Assembly (NCBI GenBank): GCA_025362195.1
Contig: JANYHV010000492.1
Location: 1-36,016 of the forward strand
Source of the DNA: Fimbriiglobus sp.
GTDB lineage: Bacteria > Planctomycetota > Planctomycetia > Gemmatales > Gemmataceae
Length of the DNA: 36,016 nucleotides
Direction: 5' to 3'
Part shown: positions 3,171 through 10,209 of the stretch, piece after piece
Numbering within the stretch: position 1 is the first letter of the stretch
Layout of the letters: each line of letters begins with the position of its first letter
Made by a program: the position numbers and the translations under genes
Notes under the pieces: model-generated
The model's input: only the letters and a program-made list of their open reading frames with translations
What the model was told of the DNA's origin: nothing
The model's database searches: none

Positions 3171-4976
3171 CTACCCGCGGTCCTGGCTGAAGATCAGCAC
3201 GCTGTACGGGGCGATGTCGATCATGGCCTGCTTCTCGGTCACGTCCACGTCGCCCGTCGGGTCGCCGTGGAAGGCTTCGCTGTAGCCCTTCCAGTCGCTG
3301 TTCAGGCGGAGCTTCCACGTGCCGGTCGCGGGGAAGTCGATGGCGTACCCCTGGCGGCCGTCGCGGTGGAAGTTCAACACGACGACGACCTCGTCCCCCT
3401 TGCCCCCGTCCTTCCACCGGCGGAAGGCGATCATGTTGGAGTCGTCGTTGACGTGCAGCAACTCGACCGACTGGCCGCTCAGGCCGCGGGTCGTGTCGAA
3501 GTAGTTGAGCCGCAGGCGGATCAGGTCGCGGTACAGCCGGACGATGCCGCGGAACTCGTCCCGCTTGTCCCAATCGACGGGCACGGTGTCCCGGAACCAT
3601 CCGCCTTCGAGGAACTCCTGGCCCTGGAAGATCATCGGGATGCCGGGGGCCGTGAACACCAGGGCCGCCGCCAGGGTGGACCGCTTCTGGGCGAAGTACC
3701 CGTTCGCCCCGCTCGGGTCGATCTCGTGCGGCACCCGCGCGCGGCCGTTCGACACCTCGTCGTGCGACTCGCTGTAAATGACCCGCTGGAAGGCGTCGTC
3801 GTTGTACCGGTGCGTGATCGCCTTCGCCACGGCGTCCATCGACCGGTGCTCGTCGGCCATCGTGATGACGGCCTCGCGGACCGGGTGGACGAACTGGTCG
3901 TCCCACTGGCTGCCGAACCCGGCCCCGCCGGCCTCGACCTTCGCCGTCAGGGCGTCGCTCTTCTGCAAGTCCTCGGCGATGGTGATGGCGTTGGGGAACT
4001 TCTGGCGGACCTCGGAGTTCACCCACTGGAGCAGGCTGAAGCCCTCCGGCAGGTTCGGCTCGCCGTCCGCCCGGACGCTGCGAATGTACAGGGTCATGTC
4101 CATGCGCAGGCCGTCCACGCGGTAGTCGCCGAGCCACATCAGGGCGTTGTCCCGGATGTACTCGCGGACCTCCTGGCGGCCGTAGTCCGGGCGGGTGCCG
4201 CCCCACGGGGTTTCCTTCCGCCAGTCGTTGTAGAAGTAGATGCCGCCGCCGTCGTTTTCGCTCCACCCGTCGAACTGCCAGATGTCCAGGTCGCCCGGGC
4301 CGAAGTGGTTGTACACCACGTCCACGATCACCGCGAACCCGTTGGCGTGGGCGTCCTTGACGAACTGCTTGAACGCCGCCGGGCCGCCGTAGCAACTCTC
4401 GACGGCGAAAATGTGCGCGGGGTTGTACCCCCACGACAGGTCGCCGGCGAACTCGGCGATCGGCATGACCTGGATCGTGTTGATGCCCAGCTTCTTCAGG
4501 TGGCCGAACTTGGCCGTCACGCTGGCCAGCTTCGAGGTCAGGTTCTCCGCCTCGGGGGACTGGTTGAACGTGCCGACGTGCAACTCGTAGATGACCATCT
4601 CGTTCCAGTACGGCGACGTAAAGTTCCCGTCGCCCCAGTCGAAGTCGGGGTCGGCGACCACGGCGTTGCCGATCGAACTGGTCACCTGCTTCGCATACGG
4701 GTCGATGCGGTTGAGCGTGCCGCCGTCGGCCGTCGTGAGCAGGAAGCGGTACTCGTCGCCCACCCCGGCCGCCGGCACGTCGGCGGACCAGTACCCGTTC
4801 GACTCGGACGCCATGCGGTCGGCGTCGGGCTTCCACTGGTTGAACGCGCCGATCACGGCGACGGCCGTCGCGTGCGGTGCCCAGACGCGGAAGGCCACTC
4901 CGTTCTCGTGGGGGACGGCACCCATTCCGGCGCGAGCTGTTGACACGGGCTTGTCCACGGTTTGAGTTGTCGGCAT
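3171..4976 (-). CDS. GH13 alpha-glucan-active enzyme, branching-enzyme-like (CBM48 + GH13)
   Basis: This 601-residue protein acts on alpha-glucans and most resembles 1,4-alpha-glucan branching enzymes. An N-terminal CBM48-like beta domain (about 20-115, with AFNQWKPDA) precedes a TIM barrel carrying all four GH13 regions: DVVYNH (219-224), GLRMD with the nucleophile D293, TIAED with the acid/base E335, and SHDEV with the transition-state Asp D406. A C-terminal beta domain follows. It is shorter than E. coli GlgB and lacks the extra N1 module. The ATG at 4976 fits the CBM48 boundary and lies just downstream of a candidate promoter, which would exclude the ATG at 5024. Its neighbours are stress-type genes, so a role in glycogen or osmolyte metabolism is plausible. 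A trehalohydrolase of the TreZ type cannot be fully excluded. Confidence 0.88.
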   Translation of the reverse strand: MPTTQTVDKPVSTARAGMGAVPHENGVAFRVWAPHATAVAVIGAFNQWKPDADRMASESNGYWSADVPAAGVGDEYRFLLTTADGGTLNRIDPYAKQVTSSIGNAVVADPDFDWGDGNFTSPYWNEMVIYELHVGTFNQSPEAENLTSKLASVTAKFGHLKKLGINTIQVMPIAEFAGDLSWGYNPAHIFAVESCYGGPAAFKQFVKDAHANGFAVIVDVVYNHFGPGDLDIWQFDGWSENDGGGIYFYNDWRKETPWGGTRPDYGRQEVREYIRDNALMWLGDYRVDGLRMDMTLYIRSVRADGEPNLPEGFSLLQWVNSEVRQKFPNAITIAEDLQKSDALTAKVEAGGAGFGSQWDDQFVHPVREAVITMADEHRSMDAVAKAITHRYNDDAFQRVIYSESHDEVSNGRARVPHEIDPSGANGYFAQKRSTLAAALVFTAPGIPMIFQGQEFLEGGWFRDTVPVDWDKRDEFRGIVRLYRDLIRLRLNYFDTTRGLSGQSVELLHVNDDSNMIAFRRWKDGGKGDEVVVVLNFHRDGRQGYAIDFPATGTWKLRLNSDWKGYSEAFHGDPTGDVDVTEKQAMIDIAPYSVLIFSQDRG

Positions 4977-4994: not shown

Positions 4995-5024
4995 ATTGTA
5001 AAGAAAAGGACCGTCGGGGAACAA
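4995..5024 (-). promoter_or_regulatory. Candidate sigma-70 promoter of the GH13 gene
   Basis: On the minus strand a -35 TTGTTC (5024-5019) is followed after 18 bases by a -10 TACAAT (5000-4995), which matches TATAAT at five of six bases. It lies between the upstream gene's terminator hairpin and the start at 4976, giving a leader of only about 12 bases. Confidence 0.4.
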
Positions 5025-5026
5025 AG

Positions 5027-5053
5027 CGAGCCTGCCGAATCTCGGCAGGCTCG
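5027..5053 (-). terminator. Rho-independent terminator of the DUF1328 gene
   Basis: A perfect 12-bp stem (CGAGCCTGCCGA paired with TCGGCAGGCTCG) with a 3-base loop lies 26 bases past the DUF1328 stop. On the minus strand it is followed by CTTTGTTCC, a short T-rich tail. This separates the small gene from the GH13 gene. Confidence 0.65.
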
Positions 5054-5078
5054 ACGAACGCGTGCAGTCACAACCCGA

Positions 5079-5252
5079 TCAAACCGTGTCGATCGGCGTA
5101 CGGCGATTGAAGACGATCGAGACGATGAACAGGACCAGGAACACGAAGAACAAGATTTGCGCGGCGAAGTACGAGCTACCGGCGATGGTCGTGAACCCGA
5201 GCGCCCCGGCGAGCAGGGCGATGAGCAGGAAGACGATGGAAAAGCGTAGCAT
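5079..5252 (-). CDS. DUF1328 (YtjA-like) small membrane protein
   Basis: This 57-residue protein begins MLRFSIVFLLIALLAG, continues through an FTTIAG turn, and ends FNRRTPIDTV. It has two hydrophobic helices, and its length and layout are those of the DUF1328/YtjA family of inner-membrane proteins, which has no known biochemical function. The start is well supported: GAAGGAG lies 8 bases upstream of the ATG at 5252. A sigma-54-type promoter lies about 120 bases upstream and a clear terminator lies downstream, so it is probably its own transcription unit. It sits beside two other small stress-type genes, and a role in envelope or osmotic stress is an inference from that grouping. Confidence 0.85.
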   Translation of the reverse strand: MLRFSIVFLLIALLAGALGFTTIAGSSYFAAQILFFVFLVLFIVSIVFNRRTPIDTV

Positions 5253-5370
5253 GGCGTGGACTCCTTCAAGAGGTCGAGGGCGTGGGACGGGCGGGGAAAC
5301 GGTCTATGTCAACCGGACGCGACCCGTCGGGCGGAGTCCGGGTTGTTGTTGGTGGGGGCGACAATGTTGA

Positions 5371-5386
5371 TGCATGTCCCGTGCCA
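5371..5386 (-). promoter_or_regulatory. Sigma-54 (-24/-12) promoter of the DUF1328 gene
   Basis: The minus strand reads TGGCACGGGACATGCA, with GG and GC separated by exactly 10 bases. It differs from the consensus TGGCACRNNNNTTGCW at one base. Transcription would start near 5360, leaving a leader of about 108 bases. The site begins directly after the stop codon of the upstream gene. Two similar sites occur within 1.1 kb, beside a sigma-54 activator gene. Confidence 0.72.
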
Positions 5387-5389
5387 AAC

Positions 5390-5869
5390 TCACGCGGTCG
5401 CATTCTCGACCGACGCGATCATCAGTTCGAGTTGGCCGACGTGCTTGAGGCAGCGGGGCAGCAGGTCGGTGCGGATGACGTTCTTGCACTCGGCCGTCAG
5501 CCCGTCGTTTTCGAGCGCCTTCTCGTACTGGCTGATGCCGTGCTCCTCGCCCTGCTTGAGCGCGGCCAGCACACTCTGCGGGCCGATGATCTTGGCCGTG
5601 CCGGTCACGAGCGTGGCGAACGTGCCCCACGGGCCGGACCCGGTGGACGGCTCGCCGTTGTAACTGAGCACGCGGTCGCGCAGGGTGTCCGCCGCCCGGT
5701 CGTGCTCGTCGCGGACCTTGGTCAGGCTGACCTTGTGCGCCGAGTCGTCGAACTTCTCGACGGCCTGCTGGTACGTCTCGACGGCCGAGATTTCGCCGCG
5801 GAGCAGCGAGTTCAGCGCGTCCACGTCGCAGGTCATCGCCGTGGTGGTCGGGGAATTGCTATTCGCCAT
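5390..5869 (-). CDS. PA2169/DUF2383 family four-helix-bundle protein
   Basis: This 159-residue, mostly helical protein has the features of the DUF2383 (PA2169) ferritin-like family: NSLLRGEISAVETYQQAVEKF near the N-terminus, KVRDEHDRAADTLRDRV in the second helix, then an alanine/glycine-rich stretch, and EEHGISQYEKAL in the later helices. The repeated Glu and His residues at helix faces resemble a carboxylate-bridged metal site, but no function is established for the family. The ATG at 5869 is chosen because AGGA lies 9 bases upstream and the conserved region starts shortly after. In-frame sequence further upstream is low-quality and overlaps a promoter. The gene has its own sigma-54-like promoter and lies between CsbD-like and DUF1328 genes. 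Confidence 0.85.
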   Translation of the reverse strand: MANSNSPTTTAMTCDVDALNSLLRGEISAVETYQQAVEKFDDSAHKVSLTKVRDEHDRAADTLRDRVLSYNGEPSTGSGPWGTFATLVTGTAKIIGPQSVLAALKQGEEHGISQYEKALENDGLTAECKNVIRTDLLPRCLKHVGQLELMIASVENATA

Positions 5870-5927
5870 GAGCGTCGGTCCTGGGAAGAATGGGATGGGG
5901 TCGGAGCGGGTCACAGGATGTCGGACT

Positions 5928-5943
5928 TGCAACGCCGGTGCCG
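5928..5943 (-). promoter_or_regulatory. Sigma-54 (-24/-12) promoter of the PA2169-family gene
   Basis: The minus strand reads CGGCACCGGCGTTGCA. GG and GC are separated by 10 bases and the -12 half TTGCA is perfect; two bases differ from consensus. The predicted start near 5917 gives a leader of about 48 bases to the ATG at 5869. Confidence 0.68.
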
Positions 5944-5978
5944 GACCGGCCCGGGCGGCGGAAAAGCCCCCGAAATGA

Positions 5979-6008
5979 CGACGGCCCGGGGACATCCCCG
6001 GGCCGTCG
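5979..6008 (-). terminator. Strong hairpin 3' of the CsbD-like gene, probable terminator
   Basis: A perfect 13-bp stem (CGACGGCCCGGGG) with the 4-base loop ACAT lies 21 bases beyond the CsbD-like stop codon. On the minus strand the bases after it are TCATTTCGG, a weak T-tract. It is also 36 bases upstream of the sigma-54 promoter at 5928-5943, so a second role as a protein-binding dyad is possible. Confidence 0.6.
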
Positions 6009-6029
6009 CGTCGTCCCGTTAGGCGGGAG

Positions 6030-6344
6030 TTACTTGGCTTGCTTCTTGACCTTGTCGCCGGCGTCCTTCATGGCGTTGCCGGCGTCGGTGGCCGCGTTGC
6101 GGGCCTTGTCCTGCAAGTTCTCGGCGGTGTCCTTGGCCTTCTCGCCGACCTTGTGGGCCGCGTCCTTGACGTCTTGCTTGACTTCGCCGGCCTTGTCCTT
6201 GGTGGCTTCGGTCGCGTTGTGGACCTTGTCCCGGACGACTTCGGCCGCGTCACCGACCTTTTCGGCGACCTTTTGGCCGGCGTGCTTCACGGCTTCGGCG
6301 GCGTCGATGACAGTTTCCTTGATCTTCTTCCCGGTTTCCGACAT
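6030..6344 (-). CDS. CsbD/LEA-like amphipathic-helix stress protein
   Basis: This 104-residue protein is made almost wholly of charged amphipathic helix, with degenerate 11-residue repeats of the type VKHAGQKVAEKVGDAAEVVRDK and DKAGEVKQDVKDAAHKVGEKA (each split here by family variation). It is rich in Ala, Lys, Asp and Glu and has no cysteine or tryptophan. Such proteins resemble late-embryogenesis-abundant, apolipoprotein-like and CsbD-type stress proteins; exact family assignment needs a profile search. AAGGAT about 7 bases upstream supports the ATG at 6344. It lies directly downstream of the sigma-54 activator gene and carries its own sigma-54 promoter, with a dyad in the leader. Desiccation or osmotic protection is inferred. 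Confidence 0.8.
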   Translation of the reverse strand: MSETGKKIKETVIDAAEAVKHAGQKVAEKVGDAAEVVRDKVHNATEATKDKAGEVKQDVKDAAHKVGEKAKDTAENLQDKARNAATDAGNAMKDAGDKVKKQAK

Positions 6345-6375
6345 GGTCGTATCCTTCGCGATGGTGCTGGAGAAA

Positions 6376-6394
6376 GCAGGCAACTGTTGCCTGC
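6376..6394 (-). promoter_or_regulatory. 19-base perfect palindrome in the leader of the CsbD-like gene
   Basis: GCAGGCAACTGTTGCCTGC has 9-bp arms around one base. It falls between the predicted sigma-54 start (near 6402) and the ribosome binding site, and on the minus strand is followed by TTTCTCC. It could be an mRNA hairpin, an attenuator, or a binding dyad for the adjacent Fis-type activator. The sequence alone does not decide. Confidence 0.5.
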
Positions 6395-6412
6395 TCGACG
6401 AGGGACTGCAGA

Positions 6413-6428
6413 AGCAGCCCGCGTGCCA
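6413..6428 (-). promoter_or_regulatory. Sigma-54 (-24/-12) promoter of the CsbD-like gene
   Basis: The minus strand reads TGGCACGCGGGCTGCT: GG and GC are 10 bases apart, and only one base differs from TGGCACRNNNNTTGCW. The predicted start is near 6402, with a leader of about 58 bases. It lies 40 bases after the stop of the sigma-54 activator gene. Confidence 0.74.
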
Positions 6429-6438
6429 AACACCGTCG

Positions 6439-6454
6439 CGCCCCGCTCGGGGCG
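6439..6454 (-). terminator. Hairpin after the sigma-54 activator gene, possible terminator
   Basis: CGCCCC and GGGGCG flank the 4-base loop GCTC, 14 bases past the activator's stop codon. The following minus-strand bases include GTGTTTGG, a poor T-tract that runs into the next gene's promoter. Termination here is plausible but weakly supported. Confidence 0.4.
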
Positions 6455-6467
6455 GGCGGATTCGCCC

Positions 6468-7877
6468 TTAGTCTTGCTTAAACTCGGCTTTATCAATTTT
6501 GTACTGCGCGATCTTGTCCGTGATGCTCCGCCGCGACAGCCCGGTGAGCGCGGCGCACTTGCCGACGTGGCCGCGGGTTTTGCGCAGCGCCTTTCTCAGG
6601 TACCGTTCCTCGAATGCCGAAGTCAATTCGCCCATCTGCTCCGTCAGCGTCCGGCTCAAGTCCACCTGGTACGGGTGCCTGGCCCCCTCGGTCCGCTTGG
6701 ACACGTCGGACGGCAGGTTCTTGACGCCGATCACCCCGTCGGTGCAGGTGATGCACGCCCGCTCCATCGCGTTTTCGAGTTGCCGGACGTTGCCCGGCCA
6801 CTCGCACTTCACGAGGACGGCCATCGCCTCGGGGCCGACCGTCGGGACCGGTTTGCCGGCCCGGGCGTACCGCTGGCAGAAGAAGTCGGCGAGCACGGCC
6901 ACGTCCTCCGGCCGCTCGCGGAGCGGAGGGATTTCCATGCGGATGACGTTCAGCCGGTAGTACAGGTCCTCGCGGAACTTGCCTTCTTTGACGAGCTTTT
7001 CGAGGGACTGGTGCGTCGCCGCGATCACCCGCACGTCGATCGGGATCGACTCGGACCCGCCGACCCGCTCGAACTTCCGCTCCTGGAGCACCCGCAACAA
7101 CTTGACCTGCATCGACAGCGGCACGTCGCCGATCTCGTCCAGGAACAGGGTGCCGCCGTTGGCCAACTCGAACCGGCCCTTGCGCTGCGCGGCCGCCCCG
7201 GTGAACGACCCCTTCTCGTGCCCGAACAGTTCGCTCTCGAGCAGCGACTCGGGCAACGCCGCGCAGTTAATCGCCGTGAACACGCCCGACCGGAACGGCT
7301 TCGACGCGGTGTGGATGGCGCGGGCGACCTGCTCCTTGCCGGTGCCGGTCTCGCCGAGGATCAGCACCGTGCTCGCCGTGTCCGCGATGCTGGCGATCAG
7401 CTCGAACAGGTCGTACATGCGCGGGCTTTTGGTGATGACGTTCTGGAACGAGAACTGGCCCTGCAACTGCGAGCGCAGGGCGGCGACTTCGTCGTGCAGG
7501 GCGCGCGATTCCAACGCCCGGGCCACGACTAGGCACAGATGTTGCGGGTCTGCCGGTTTGACCTGGAAGTCGAAGGCCCCTTGCTTCATCGCCAGGACGG
7601 CCTCGGCCACGCCGCCGTGGCCGGTCGTGACGATCGTGGTGACGGGAATCTTCTCGGCCCGGATGGCCTCGATGAGTTGCATGCCGGTTTTCTTGGGCAT
7701 GCGCAGGTCGGTGATCAGGACGCTGTACGGCCGCGCCCGTAGCATTTCGAGGGCGATCGCGCCGTCCGCGGCGGTATCGACTTCGAGGCCGAGCTTGAGC
7801 TGCAAGAGTTCCTGCAAACTCTCGCGGGTGTCCTGAACGTCTTCGGCGACGAGGAGGCGTTGGTGAGACGGGTTCAC
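6468..7877 (-). CDS. NtrC-family sigma-54-dependent response regulator
   Basis: This 469-residue activator drives sigma-54 RNA polymerase when phosphorylated. The receiver domain (about 6-120) has phosphoacceptor D57 in LITDLRMP and K107. The AAA+ domain (about 145-385) has Walker A GETGTGKE (175-182), a GSFTGA loop (223-228) in place of GAFTGA, and Walker B GGTLFLDE (D247, E248). A C-terminal Fis-type helix-turn-helix carries [11 protein letters not shown]. The start is GTG at 7877, giving [13 protein letters not shown]. The minus strand has GAGAG upstream, and the longer reading frame runs into the divergent kinase gene. It is divergent from a histidine kinase 106 bases away, its likely partner. 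Three small genes just downstream carry sigma-54 promoters and are candidate targets. Confidence 0.92.
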
Positions 7878-7983
7878 GATGATCTCTCGCGGGAGTGATT
7901 CAGACCGTAATGTATCCACTCGGCCGGGGGGCGGGAATGAGCAGTCCGGTTCCCGCCCGAACGCCCACCGCTCGGAAGGCTCC

Positions 7984-10209
7984 ATGAATCGGGACACTCT
8001 CCTCTGGGTCATGGCCGCCCTCGCGGTGCTGGTCAACGCGGTCGTCGGCATCTTCAACATCGACCGCATGTTGCAGCGGGACCGGGCCGTCAAGGCCCGC
8101 ATCACCGCCCAGTTCGAGTTGACCGAAGTCCTGTCCGACATGAAGGACGGCGAGACCGGGCACCGCGGGTACATCATCACCGGCGAACCCGGCTACCTCA
8201 AGCCTTTTCAGGACGCCGAAGAGGCGATCCCCGTCCGCCAGCAGAAACTCCGCCTCATGCTCGCCGATCAGCCGGCCCAGTTGGCGCGGCTCGACGAACT
8301 CGACCGGGTCATCGCGGACAAGTTCGTCGAAATGAAGCGGACGATTGCCGTCCGGGACGCCGCGGGTCTGGCCGCCGGTGCCGCCGCCGTCGCCCAGGAC
8401 ATCGGCAAAAACCTCATGGAACAGATTCGGGCGGAAGTCGCGGCCCTTGCCGCGGAGCAGGCGCGGCTGTTGGAAGTCGATCAAGACAAGTCGGTCGAGC
8501 AGCGCTGGACGGCCCTGCTCACGCTGGTCATCGGGGCGGTCATGGCGGTCGGCATCATCTTGACCGCCGCCGCGATCGTCCGCGTCGAGATGGCCCGGCG
8601 GATGGCCGCGTTCGCCGCCGTCCAACGGGCCAAGAACGACGCCGAGTCGGCGTTGAACCAGCTCGACGCCTACTTCCGCAACGCCCCGTGCGGCATCGCC
8701 TACTACGACGCCGACCTGCGGTGCATCCACATCAACGAGGCGTTCGCCAAGCTCAACCGCCTGCCGGCCGCGGAGTTGATCGGCAAGTCGTTCGACGAGG
8801 TGCCGCCGAACTTCCCGTTGAAGTTGCAGGAGGAGTACCTGGAAGTCTCGAAGAGCCTGCAGCCGGCCGTCAGCCGCCGGTTGGCCATCGCCGACGAGAT
8901 TTGGGAGATTTCCGTCTTCCCCGTCAAGGCGACGAAGGTCGAGCGCACGGGGCTGGGCATCATCGGCATCGACGTGACCGCGGCGGCCGAAGCCGAGGCC
9001 CGCATCCTGGAGAGCGAAGCCCGCTTCCGCACGATGGCCGAGGCGATGCCCCAGATCGTCTGGATGACGCGGCCGGACGGGTACCACGAGTACTACAACC
9101 TGCGGTGGTACGAGTTCACCGGCCTGACCCCCGAGCAGAGCATCGGCTGGGGCTGGAGCCTTCCCCTGCACCCCGAGGACCTGGCGCGGAGCAAGGCCCG
9201 CTGGCAAATCTCCGTGGACAACGCCATCCCCTACGAGGTCGAGTACCGCTTCCGCGGGGCCGACGGCGGCTACCGCTGGTTCCTCGCCCGGGCCAACCCG
9301 ATCCGCAACGAAAAGGGCCAGGTCGTCCGCTGGCTCGGCACGTGCACGGACATCGACGACAGCAAGCAGCAGGCAGAGAAGCTCGAAGAACTCATCGACA
9401 GCCGCACCGCCGCGCTCCGCCGCAGCAATCAGGAGTTGGAGAAGTTCGCGTACATCGCGTCGCACGACTTGCAGGAGCCGCTGCGCAAGATTCAGGCCTT
9501 CGGGGACCGCCTGAACACGCGGTACAAGGCCGGCCTCGGCGAGCAGGGCCAGGACTACATCGCCCGGATGCTCGACTCGGCCGGGCGGATGCGGCGGCTC
9601 ATCGACGACCTGCTGTCGTTCTCGCGGATCACGTCCAAGGTCCAACCGCTCGCCCCGGTCGACCTGAACGCCGTCGTCCGGGACGTGCTGTCGGACCTCG
9701 AAATCCGCGTCGCCCAGTCCGGCGGGCGGGTCGAAGTCGGCCCGCTCCCGACCCTGCCGGCCGACTCGGTGCAGATGCGGCAACTGTTCCAGAACCTCGT
9801 CGGCAACGCGCTGAAGTTCCAGCGGCCCGGCGTCCCGCCCGTCGTCACCGTGCGGGCCGAACCGCTCCGCCAGTTCCCGCCCGACCCGCCGTCGAACGGG
9901 ACGACCGCGCCCCCCCGCCGGACCGGGTACCGCATCACCGTGGCGGACAACGGGATCGGGTTCGAGGCCCAGTACGCCGACCGCATCTTCGAGCTGTTCC
10001 AGCGGTTGCACGGCCGGCACCAGTACGAGGGGACCGGGCTGGGCCTGGCCATTTGCAAGAAGATCGCCGACCGGCACGGGGGGGCAATCTCGGCCAAAGG
10101 GTATCCGGGCGAGGGATCAACGTTTATAATCGACCTTCCCACGTCTCAGGAGGCAGAAGCGCACCATGCCACACCGACCCCAGCCGGTGACAATTCTCGT
10201 CGCCGATGA
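7984..10209 (+). CDS. CHASE3-PAS-PAS sensor histidine kinase
   Basis: This 741-residue membrane sensor kinase has a first membrane helix (about 6-26), a CHASE3-type extracytoplasmic helical domain with GETGHRGYIITGEPGYL (about 30-172), and a second helix (176-198). Two PAS domains follow (about 225-340 and 352-480; the second, with HPEDLARSKARW, is PAC-like). The HisKA segment has SHDLQEPLRKI with phospho-acceptor H494. The ATPase domain has N-box NLVGNALKFQ, DNGIGF and GTGLGLAICKKI. The ATG at 7984 is preceded by GGAAGG and begins just before the first membrane helix. The 3' end overlaps the next gene by 44 bases, so translation is probably coupled. The divergent sigma-54 regulator and the downstream CheY-like protein are both possible partners. 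Confidence 0.92.
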   Translation: MNRDTLLWVMAALAVLVNAVVGIFNIDRMLQRDRAVKARITAQFELTEVLSDMKDGETGHRGYIITGEPGYLKPFQDAEEAIPVRQQKLRLMLADQPAQLARLDELDRVIADKFVEMKRTIAVRDAAGLAAGAAAVAQDIGKNLMEQIRAEVAALAAEQARLLEVDQDKSVEQRWTALLTLVIGAVMAVGIILTAAAIVRVEMARRMAAFAAVQRAKNDAESALNQLDAYFRNAPCGIAYYDADLRCIHINEAFAKLNRLPAAELIGKSFDEVPPNFPLKLQEEYLEVSKSLQPAVSRRLAIADEIWEISVFPVKATKVERTGLGIIGIDVTAAAEAEARILESEARFRTMAEAMPQIVWMTRPDGYHEYYNLRWYEFTGLTPEQSIGWGWSLPLHPEDLARSKARWQISVDNAIPYEVEYRFRGADGGYRWFLARANPIRNEKGQVVRWLGTCTDIDDSKQQAEKLEELIDSRTAALRRSNQELEKFAYIASHDLQEPLRKIQAFGDRLNTRYKAGLGEQGQDYIARMLDSAGRMRRLIDDLLSFSRITSKVQPLAPVDLNAVVRDVLSDLEIRVAQSGGRVEVGPLPTLPADSVQMRQLFQNLVGNALKFQRPGVPPVVTVRAEPLRQFPPDPPSNGTTAPPRRTGYRITVADNGIGFEAQYADRIFELFQRLHGRHQYEGTGLGLAICKKIADRHGGAISAKGYPGEGSTFIIDLPTSQEAEAHHATPTPAGDNSRRR

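Follow-up and report, generated by a model that had tools for sequence, protein, structure and literature searches.

The locus considered here lies in a 36,016-nucleotide stretch of DNA, referred to below as the window, from a draft genome of Fimbriiglobus sp. (Gemmataceae, Planctomycetota; contig JANYHV010000492.1). Three small genes follow one another on its minus strand, directly upstream of them lies a gene for a response regulator of the NtrC type, and a gene for a sensor histidine kinase diverges from that of the regulator. Each small gene is preceded by a sequence resembling a sigma-54 (-24/-12) promoter, and the analysis presented here, which is computational and sequence-based, indicates that sigma-54 very probably turns on these small stress-protein genes, and that the two-component activator beside them is perhaps the intermediary. 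The genes and predicted promoters are as follows.

5079..5252, minus strand: gene for a DUF1328 small protein, 57 amino acids (PF07043, 7.4e-12)
5371..5386, minus strand: predicted sigma-54 promoter of the DUF1328 gene, TGGCACGGGACATGCA; one mismatch, predicted start ~5360
5390..5869, minus strand: gene for a DUF2383 / PA2169-like protein, 159 amino acids (PF09537, 3.5e-15; TIGR02284 below cut-off)
5928..5943, minus strand: predicted sigma-54-like promoter of the DUF2383 gene, CGGCACCGGCGTTGCA; two mismatches, predicted start ~5917
6030..6344, minus strand: gene for an LEA/YtxH-like amphipathic-helix protein, 104 amino acids (sub-threshold profiles, periodicity)
6413..6428, minus strand: predicted sigma-54 (-24/-12) promoter of the LEA/YtxH-like gene, TGGCACGCGGGCTGCT; one mismatch, predicted start ~6402
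6468..7877, minus strand: gene for an NtrC-type response regulator with a receiver, an AAA+ sigma-54 interaction domain and a Fis helix-turn-helix (domain profiles)
7984..10209, plus strand: gene for a divergent sensor histidine kinase, CHASE3-PAS-HisKA-HATPase, the probable partner of the regulator (domain profiles)

The sites were judged against the consensus TGGCAC-N5-TTGCW, with GG and GC 10 bases apart. An initial annotation of this DNA had placed three minus-strand sites at exactly these coordinates, and a recount agrees with the one, two and one mismatches that it gave for the LEA-like, DUF2383 and DUF1328 genes and with a GG-N10-GC pattern in a shared register. By this measure the 5371 and 6413 sites are strong and the 5928 site is weak when taken alone, its position being conserved; the sites stand 68 (LEA-like), 58 (DUF2383) and 118 bases (DUF1328) from the gene starts, with all three genes downstream. 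Loose matching was not used as evidence, since its counts are at chance: 66 matches with up to three mismatches were seen in the window where 65.5 were expected, and 781 occurrences of GG-N10-GC where 785 were expected. Among those 66 matches only the 6413 and 5371 sites have a single mismatch, and nine further sites in the window have two, as does the one at 5928. A scan of positions 5000-8050 for sigma-70 promoters found none where 0.2 were expected and is hence uninformative. For the earlier argument that three such sites are unlikely to occur together by chance, loose counts are no evidence in themselves; the support comes instead from a strict form of the motif, from placement before gene starts and from conservation.

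Conservation is most directly seen in the nearest relative, G007, whose activator is 88% identical to that of the window and in which all three sites persist. Before the LEA-like gene a 21-base block, GTTTGGCACGCGGGCTGCTTC, is unchanged and is the longest such run in that intergenic region; the DUF2383 site reads TGGCATCGCCGTTGCA in the matching place and register, and the DUF1328 site reads TGGCACGCCATGTGCT. An independent test is provided by DUF1328 genes wherever they are located, for which 79 of 86 places found by profile were used, seven of the weakest being left out (two of the 79 have short upstream DNA, of 28 and 95 bases, and were scored as having no site). Within 250 bases upstream, an exact site is present in 22 of the 79 and a site with at most two mismatches in 53, as against none and six, respectively, on the antisense strand. 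Shuffling the same upstream DNA in 2-base blocks gave a site with at most two mismatches in 42/1580 cases, and control open reading frames had a site in 2/116, a set in which the activator locus of the window (L252) is counted. For DUF2383 genes, six of eight, window included, are preceded by a site with at most two mismatches, and none has one on the antisense strand.

The sites also cluster at orthologues of the activator. Of 95 genomes of the family, 50 have an activator match at E <=1e-100, and in 44 of these the best match is at least 56% identical, partial copies included. Forty-one activator loci, window included, were inspected. In 540 kb of such DNA there are 23 exact TGCA-type sites where 0.48 would be expected from the remainder of the same 39 genomes, a density ~48 times higher, and the reversed pattern does not occur. 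Exact sites at these loci precede genes for DUF1328, LEA-like (by eye) and holin-X (PF07332) proteins, and one-mismatch sites precede BrkB (PF03631) and AI-2E transporter genes. The scan of relatives that the initial annotation had proposed as a check therefore came out in its favour, with all sites present in G007, DUF1328 genes well above controls and clustering at the activator orthologues.

In the 300 bases that precede the activator gene itself, a site with at most two mismatches is found on the divergent strand in 20/40 loci and on the other strand in 6/40; seven of the 20 divergent sites are exact. In five loci (L071, L072, L073, L075 and L078) the exact divergent site stands before a large sensor gene, which suggests feedback on the sensor gene there. 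The products of these five genes have kinase homology at the far end, and that of L071, the one in which domains were checked, has Pfam PAS, GAF and ETR1_N matches. The sigma-54 consensus has T or C before TGG and T after TGCW. Over 47 promoters, T or C precedes TGGCAC in 45, at a position that the search pattern does not cover; the base after TGCW is T in 28, and spacer positions 8-11 carry little information. As a separate observation, an element of the form GTGTC-N2-5-[GA]A[AC]C lies just downstream of the promoter in 7/47 cases, against a maximum of one in 100 shuffles; promoters with elements of this type were located by eye in L065, L070, L071, L074 and L078.

How far the putative regulon extends was examined in the genome of the window, a 5.66-Mb draft in 509 contigs that is 87% complete. 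The strict motif, TGGCACG-N5-TGCW, occurs seven times in it, two of these in the window's 1.1-kb stretch, and all seven sites precede a small gene at a distance of 52-171 bases. In the window these are the LEA-like and DUF1328 genes; elsewhere the products are one BON-like protein (below cut-off, 24 bits vs 27), one member each of DUF2171 and YflT (the latter known as a stress family in Bacillus), another LEA-like protein with sub-threshold matches only and one protein without a family. Among the 23 of 131 one-mismatch sites in the genome that were inspected, one lies 214 bases before csrA (G000:C11:3077-3092, L045) and another precedes a gene for a 245-residue protein without a family. The regulon thus extends beyond the compact three-gene set first described, whose three sites stand.

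The gene directly upstream of the trio had been taken to encode a receiver-type sigma-54 activator, and its domains bear this out: the protein has a receiver with a phospho-acceptor Asp, an AAA+ domain with Walker A and B motifs and a GAFTGA-type loop, and a Fis helix-turn-helix, the features of NtrC-family bacterial enhancer-binding proteins (bEBPs). Among 41 sequences, from 40 loci plus the window, none departs from D57, the lysine of Walker A or the DE of Walker B; the sigma-54 contact loop is GSFTGA, with S in 31 sequences and A in 10, and the recognition helix, GLSRRS, varies only at L447, which is M in three. The best NCBIfam model is AtoC at 469 bits, below its cut-off of 714, and the protein falls below the cut-off for all 25 models listed of the 93 matched. 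A scan of the genome's contigs with the activator gave 38-50% identity among the matches listed. The DNA-binding domain of RpoN is encoded in the genome, and a histidine kinase is linked to the activator, a kinase homologue being divergent from it in 22/37 loci, window included.

The labels given at first to the second and third small genes, DUF2383 and DUF1328, agree with Pfam. The first had been called CsbD/LEA-like, and here the CsbD part falls away: at E 0.001 neither Pfam nor NCBIfam gives a CsbD match for its product. An LEA/YtxH-like identity is suggested instead by a sub-threshold YtxH match (26.1 bits, cut-off 37.5), by apolipoprotein matches that are also sub-threshold and by a periodicity of 7, 11 and 18 residues, as in LEA proteins. 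Purely by analogy with their families, the three small proteins are probably osmotic, desiccation or envelope protectants.

The arrangement that we favour, and consider likely, is one in which a signal passes from the kinase to the adjacent NtrC-type regulator and on to the -24/-12 promoters of stress and envelope genes, the three genes forming separate sigma-54 transcription units. RNA polymerase bearing RpoN would wait at the -24/-12 sites; the divergent CHASE3-PAS histidine kinase would sense the signal, upon which the adjacent regulator would be phosphorylated at D57; and the AAA+ ring of the regulator would remodel the closed complex, so that promoters of small stress and envelope proteins across the family, the trio included, would fire. 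The initial annotation had likewise proposed a two-component, sigma-54-driven stress response. The promoters that it invoked are conserved and linked to the activator; what we infer is a main and direct role for this regulator in activating them, its partnership with the kinase, and stress as the signal. Several results weigh against such an arrangement. More than two mismatches, or no site, were found at 26/79 DUF1328 genes. The exact motif is no commoner than its reversal, at 294 versus 291 across 39 genomes and 6 versus 4 in this one, and with one mismatch allowed the counts in this genome are 138 for the motif and 493 for its reversal, so that the argument is one of position and clustering only. 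The gap between activator and kinase genes in the window has no site (the best candidate has five mismatches), residue G227 of the activator loop is replaced by S in 5/41 sequences, and in R. baltica rpoN is not heat-regulated and is lowered by salt (PMC2754498).

Perhaps the most serious competing explanation is that the genes are under sigma-54 control exerted by one or more different bEBPs of the genome, the neighbouring activator being linked to them for another reason. The genome has eight clear sigma-54 activator domains (E <=1.4e-37, this activator included), and no enhancer motif was accepted upstream of the promoters in searches with gapped 4-mer pairs, footprints (four orthologue sets) and palindromic expectation-maximisation (EM). 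The palindromic EM motifs do score above a first-order null (e.g. 70.8 vs 36-44), yet the best upstream motif was rejected as an enhancer for its 3-base periodicity, which is typical of coding DNA, and CATG, with the start codon, appears in two of three downstream motifs. With no enhancer and seven other clear sigma-54 activators, the link to this activator rests on synteny and co-occurrence, and the missing enhancer is the weak point of the mechanism. Outside the family, DUF1328 sites exist in the class, yet no activator match exceeds 44% identity in 17 class genomes. Against this explanation stand the ~48-fold density of exact sites at orthologues of this particular activator and the presence of a site in half of the divergent promoters beside it. 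The activator also co-occurs with DUF1328 (of the 95 genomes, 36 have both, eight the activator only, six DUF1328 only and 45 neither), in genomes that are related and not independent, so that P values overstate the association. Furthermore, no other of the eight domains lies within 11 kb of the seven exact sites on the same contig, the closest being 11.8 kb from an exact site on C253, in an assembly of 509 contigs. On balance we regard control by a different bEBP as unlikely.

A narrower doubt concerns the DUF2383 gene, which might be expressed by other means, with 6413 and 5371 as genuine sigma-54 promoters and the 5928 site a product of chance. Its two mismatches, shared with nine other sites in the window, fit this idea; its counterpart in G007, at the same position and register, and the frequency of such sites before DUF2383 genes on the sense strand speak against it, and we judge it somewhat less probable still. 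It is also conceivable that the motif as a whole is an operator of another DNA-binding protein, or reflects GC-rich composition bias, as the chance-level loose counts and the parity of exact and reversed patterns over whole genomes might suggest. This seems to us very improbable: the bases outside the pattern fit the sigma-54 consensus, the spacer carries little information and there is a strong strand bias towards the downstream gene.

Beyond the family, 102 genomes have a DUF1328 match, and 30 loci from among them were examined. In other families of the class, 9/11 DUF1328 genes are preceded by a site with at most two mismatches, as are 4/19 in the rest of the phylum, and antisense sites occur at 1/30 of these loci. 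Since the 17 class genomes gave no activator match above 44% identity, either these promoters predate this activator or activators have been exchanged. In three loci of other families of the class (L295, L299 and L302), sigma-54-like sites were also noticed before DUF2383-like genes near DUF1328, and in L295 and L302 before DUF3309-like genes, both kinds of gene being named by eye.

Three RNA or repeat elements accompany the small genes.

5300..5348, minus strand: DUF1328 leader hairpin, conserved, its stem showing compensatory changes among relatives and its flanks fixed
5979..6008, minus strand: inverted repeat after the LEA-like gene (by eye; absent from a terminator scan, which demands a T-run)
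6375..6395, minus strand: palindrome of 21 bases in the LEA-like leader, for the most part retained in G007, where changes are paired (by eye)

The hairpin occurs in long DUF1328 leaders between the flanks YARC and TTSACATA, and some leaders seem to carry two in tandem. In 13 leaders every one of the 78 stem cells is paired, and 5/6 positions have changed on either side of the stem, against a mean of 58.7 and a maximum of 71 pairing cells when right arms were dealt anew; these 13 of 19 leaders were picked for showing the hairpin, a choice that biases the count. An automatic fold of all 19 gave four pairs only and almost no energy, and a mean z of -0.95 for the folding energies of 30 DUF1328 leaders does not decide the matter. 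Of the held-out leaders, a model built from nine others recovered those of L065 (E 6.5e-5) and L218 (0.039), reached that of L207 at no better than E 3.2 and did not find that of L062. Over the 95 genomes it gave 10 matches at E <0.001, all before DUF1328 and nine of them training leaders, and four weaker matches besides; Rfam has no match at the hairpin in the window. A Twister-sister ribozyme match over the DUF2383 leader (5859-5963, minus strand; 22.8 bits, gathering threshold 34, E 0.097) was taken as chance. The inverted repeat probably separates the LEA-like gene from the DUF2383 gene. On the far side of the trio a GlgB/TreZ-like alpha-amylase family gene adjoins it (3171-4976, minus strand), with homologues near the activator in 9/41 loci, window included; perhaps the regulon has a link to glycogen or trehalose. 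The genome also has 28 PSD1 and 24 TIGR02996 (rpt_mate_G_obs) matches, neither of which was found in 14 control genomes, and which point to a planctomycete of the Gemmata type.

It is tempting to speculate that the general stress response of the family as a whole is run by sigma-54 and one NtrC-type master activator, with DUF1328, LEA-like, DUF2383, YflT, BON-like, DUF2171, holin-X and BrkB proteins as cargo, a type of cargo that in other phyla falls under sigma-S, sigma-B or EcfG. In some genera there would be feedback on the sensor gene of the activator, and for DUF1328 the hairpin in the leader would add post-transcriptional control. We offer this broader proposal tentatively, as a possibility that we would not bet on.

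Sigma-54 regulons have been predicted in Planctomycetia to include UspA, chaperones and ZraR-type regulators (Carrera-Reyna et al. 2025, PMC12316311), and the one predicted in Pirellula sp. strain 1 is reported to include a csrA promoter (Studholme and Dixon 2004, cited in PMC12316311). The present sites resemble these predictions in standing before stress genes, and csrA has a one-mismatch site in this genome too. The main text of PMC12316311 contains no CsbD, DUF, COG5487, COG3237 or COG1295, and in the passages compared there is nothing of this gene set, of its clustering at one activator or of its conservation. In R. baltica a sigma-54 promoter has been proposed at one common-stress gene, and 49% of the 62 genes induced by all three stresses are annotated as hypothetical; the table shared by heat, cold and salt includes the small genes RB10954 and RB10956-RB10958 (PMC2754498). 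Among the matches listed from the open-access literature, none describes this set of genes, whether as sigma-54 targets or as part of planctomycete biology.

Like ZraSR, AtoSC and NtrBC, the system pairs a receiver-AAA+-Fis regulator with an adjacent histidine kinase, but it differs from them in its CHASE3 kinase, its target genes and its failure to reach the NCBIfam cut-offs. With the general stress regulons of sigma-S, sigma-B and EcfG it shares cargo families (DUF1328 and YflT), whereas the promoters here are of the -24/-12 type, which needs an ATP-driven activator, and not those of a stress sigma factor of the sigma-70 family. In Salmonella, small proteins under sigma-S include YtjA (DUF1328) and YjbJ (CsbD-like) (PMC5437024). 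Stress-response regulation in planctomycetes is poorly known, and a conserved promoter signature defines a concrete regulon with a candidate master activator and sensor, providing at the same time a function by association for LEA-like proteins, DUF1328 and DUF2383. The signature also suggests that an ATP-gated sigma-54 switch, instead of a stress sigma factor, has come to control stress cargo, and its recurrence in relatives points to a stress response that is wired unlike the textbook ones.

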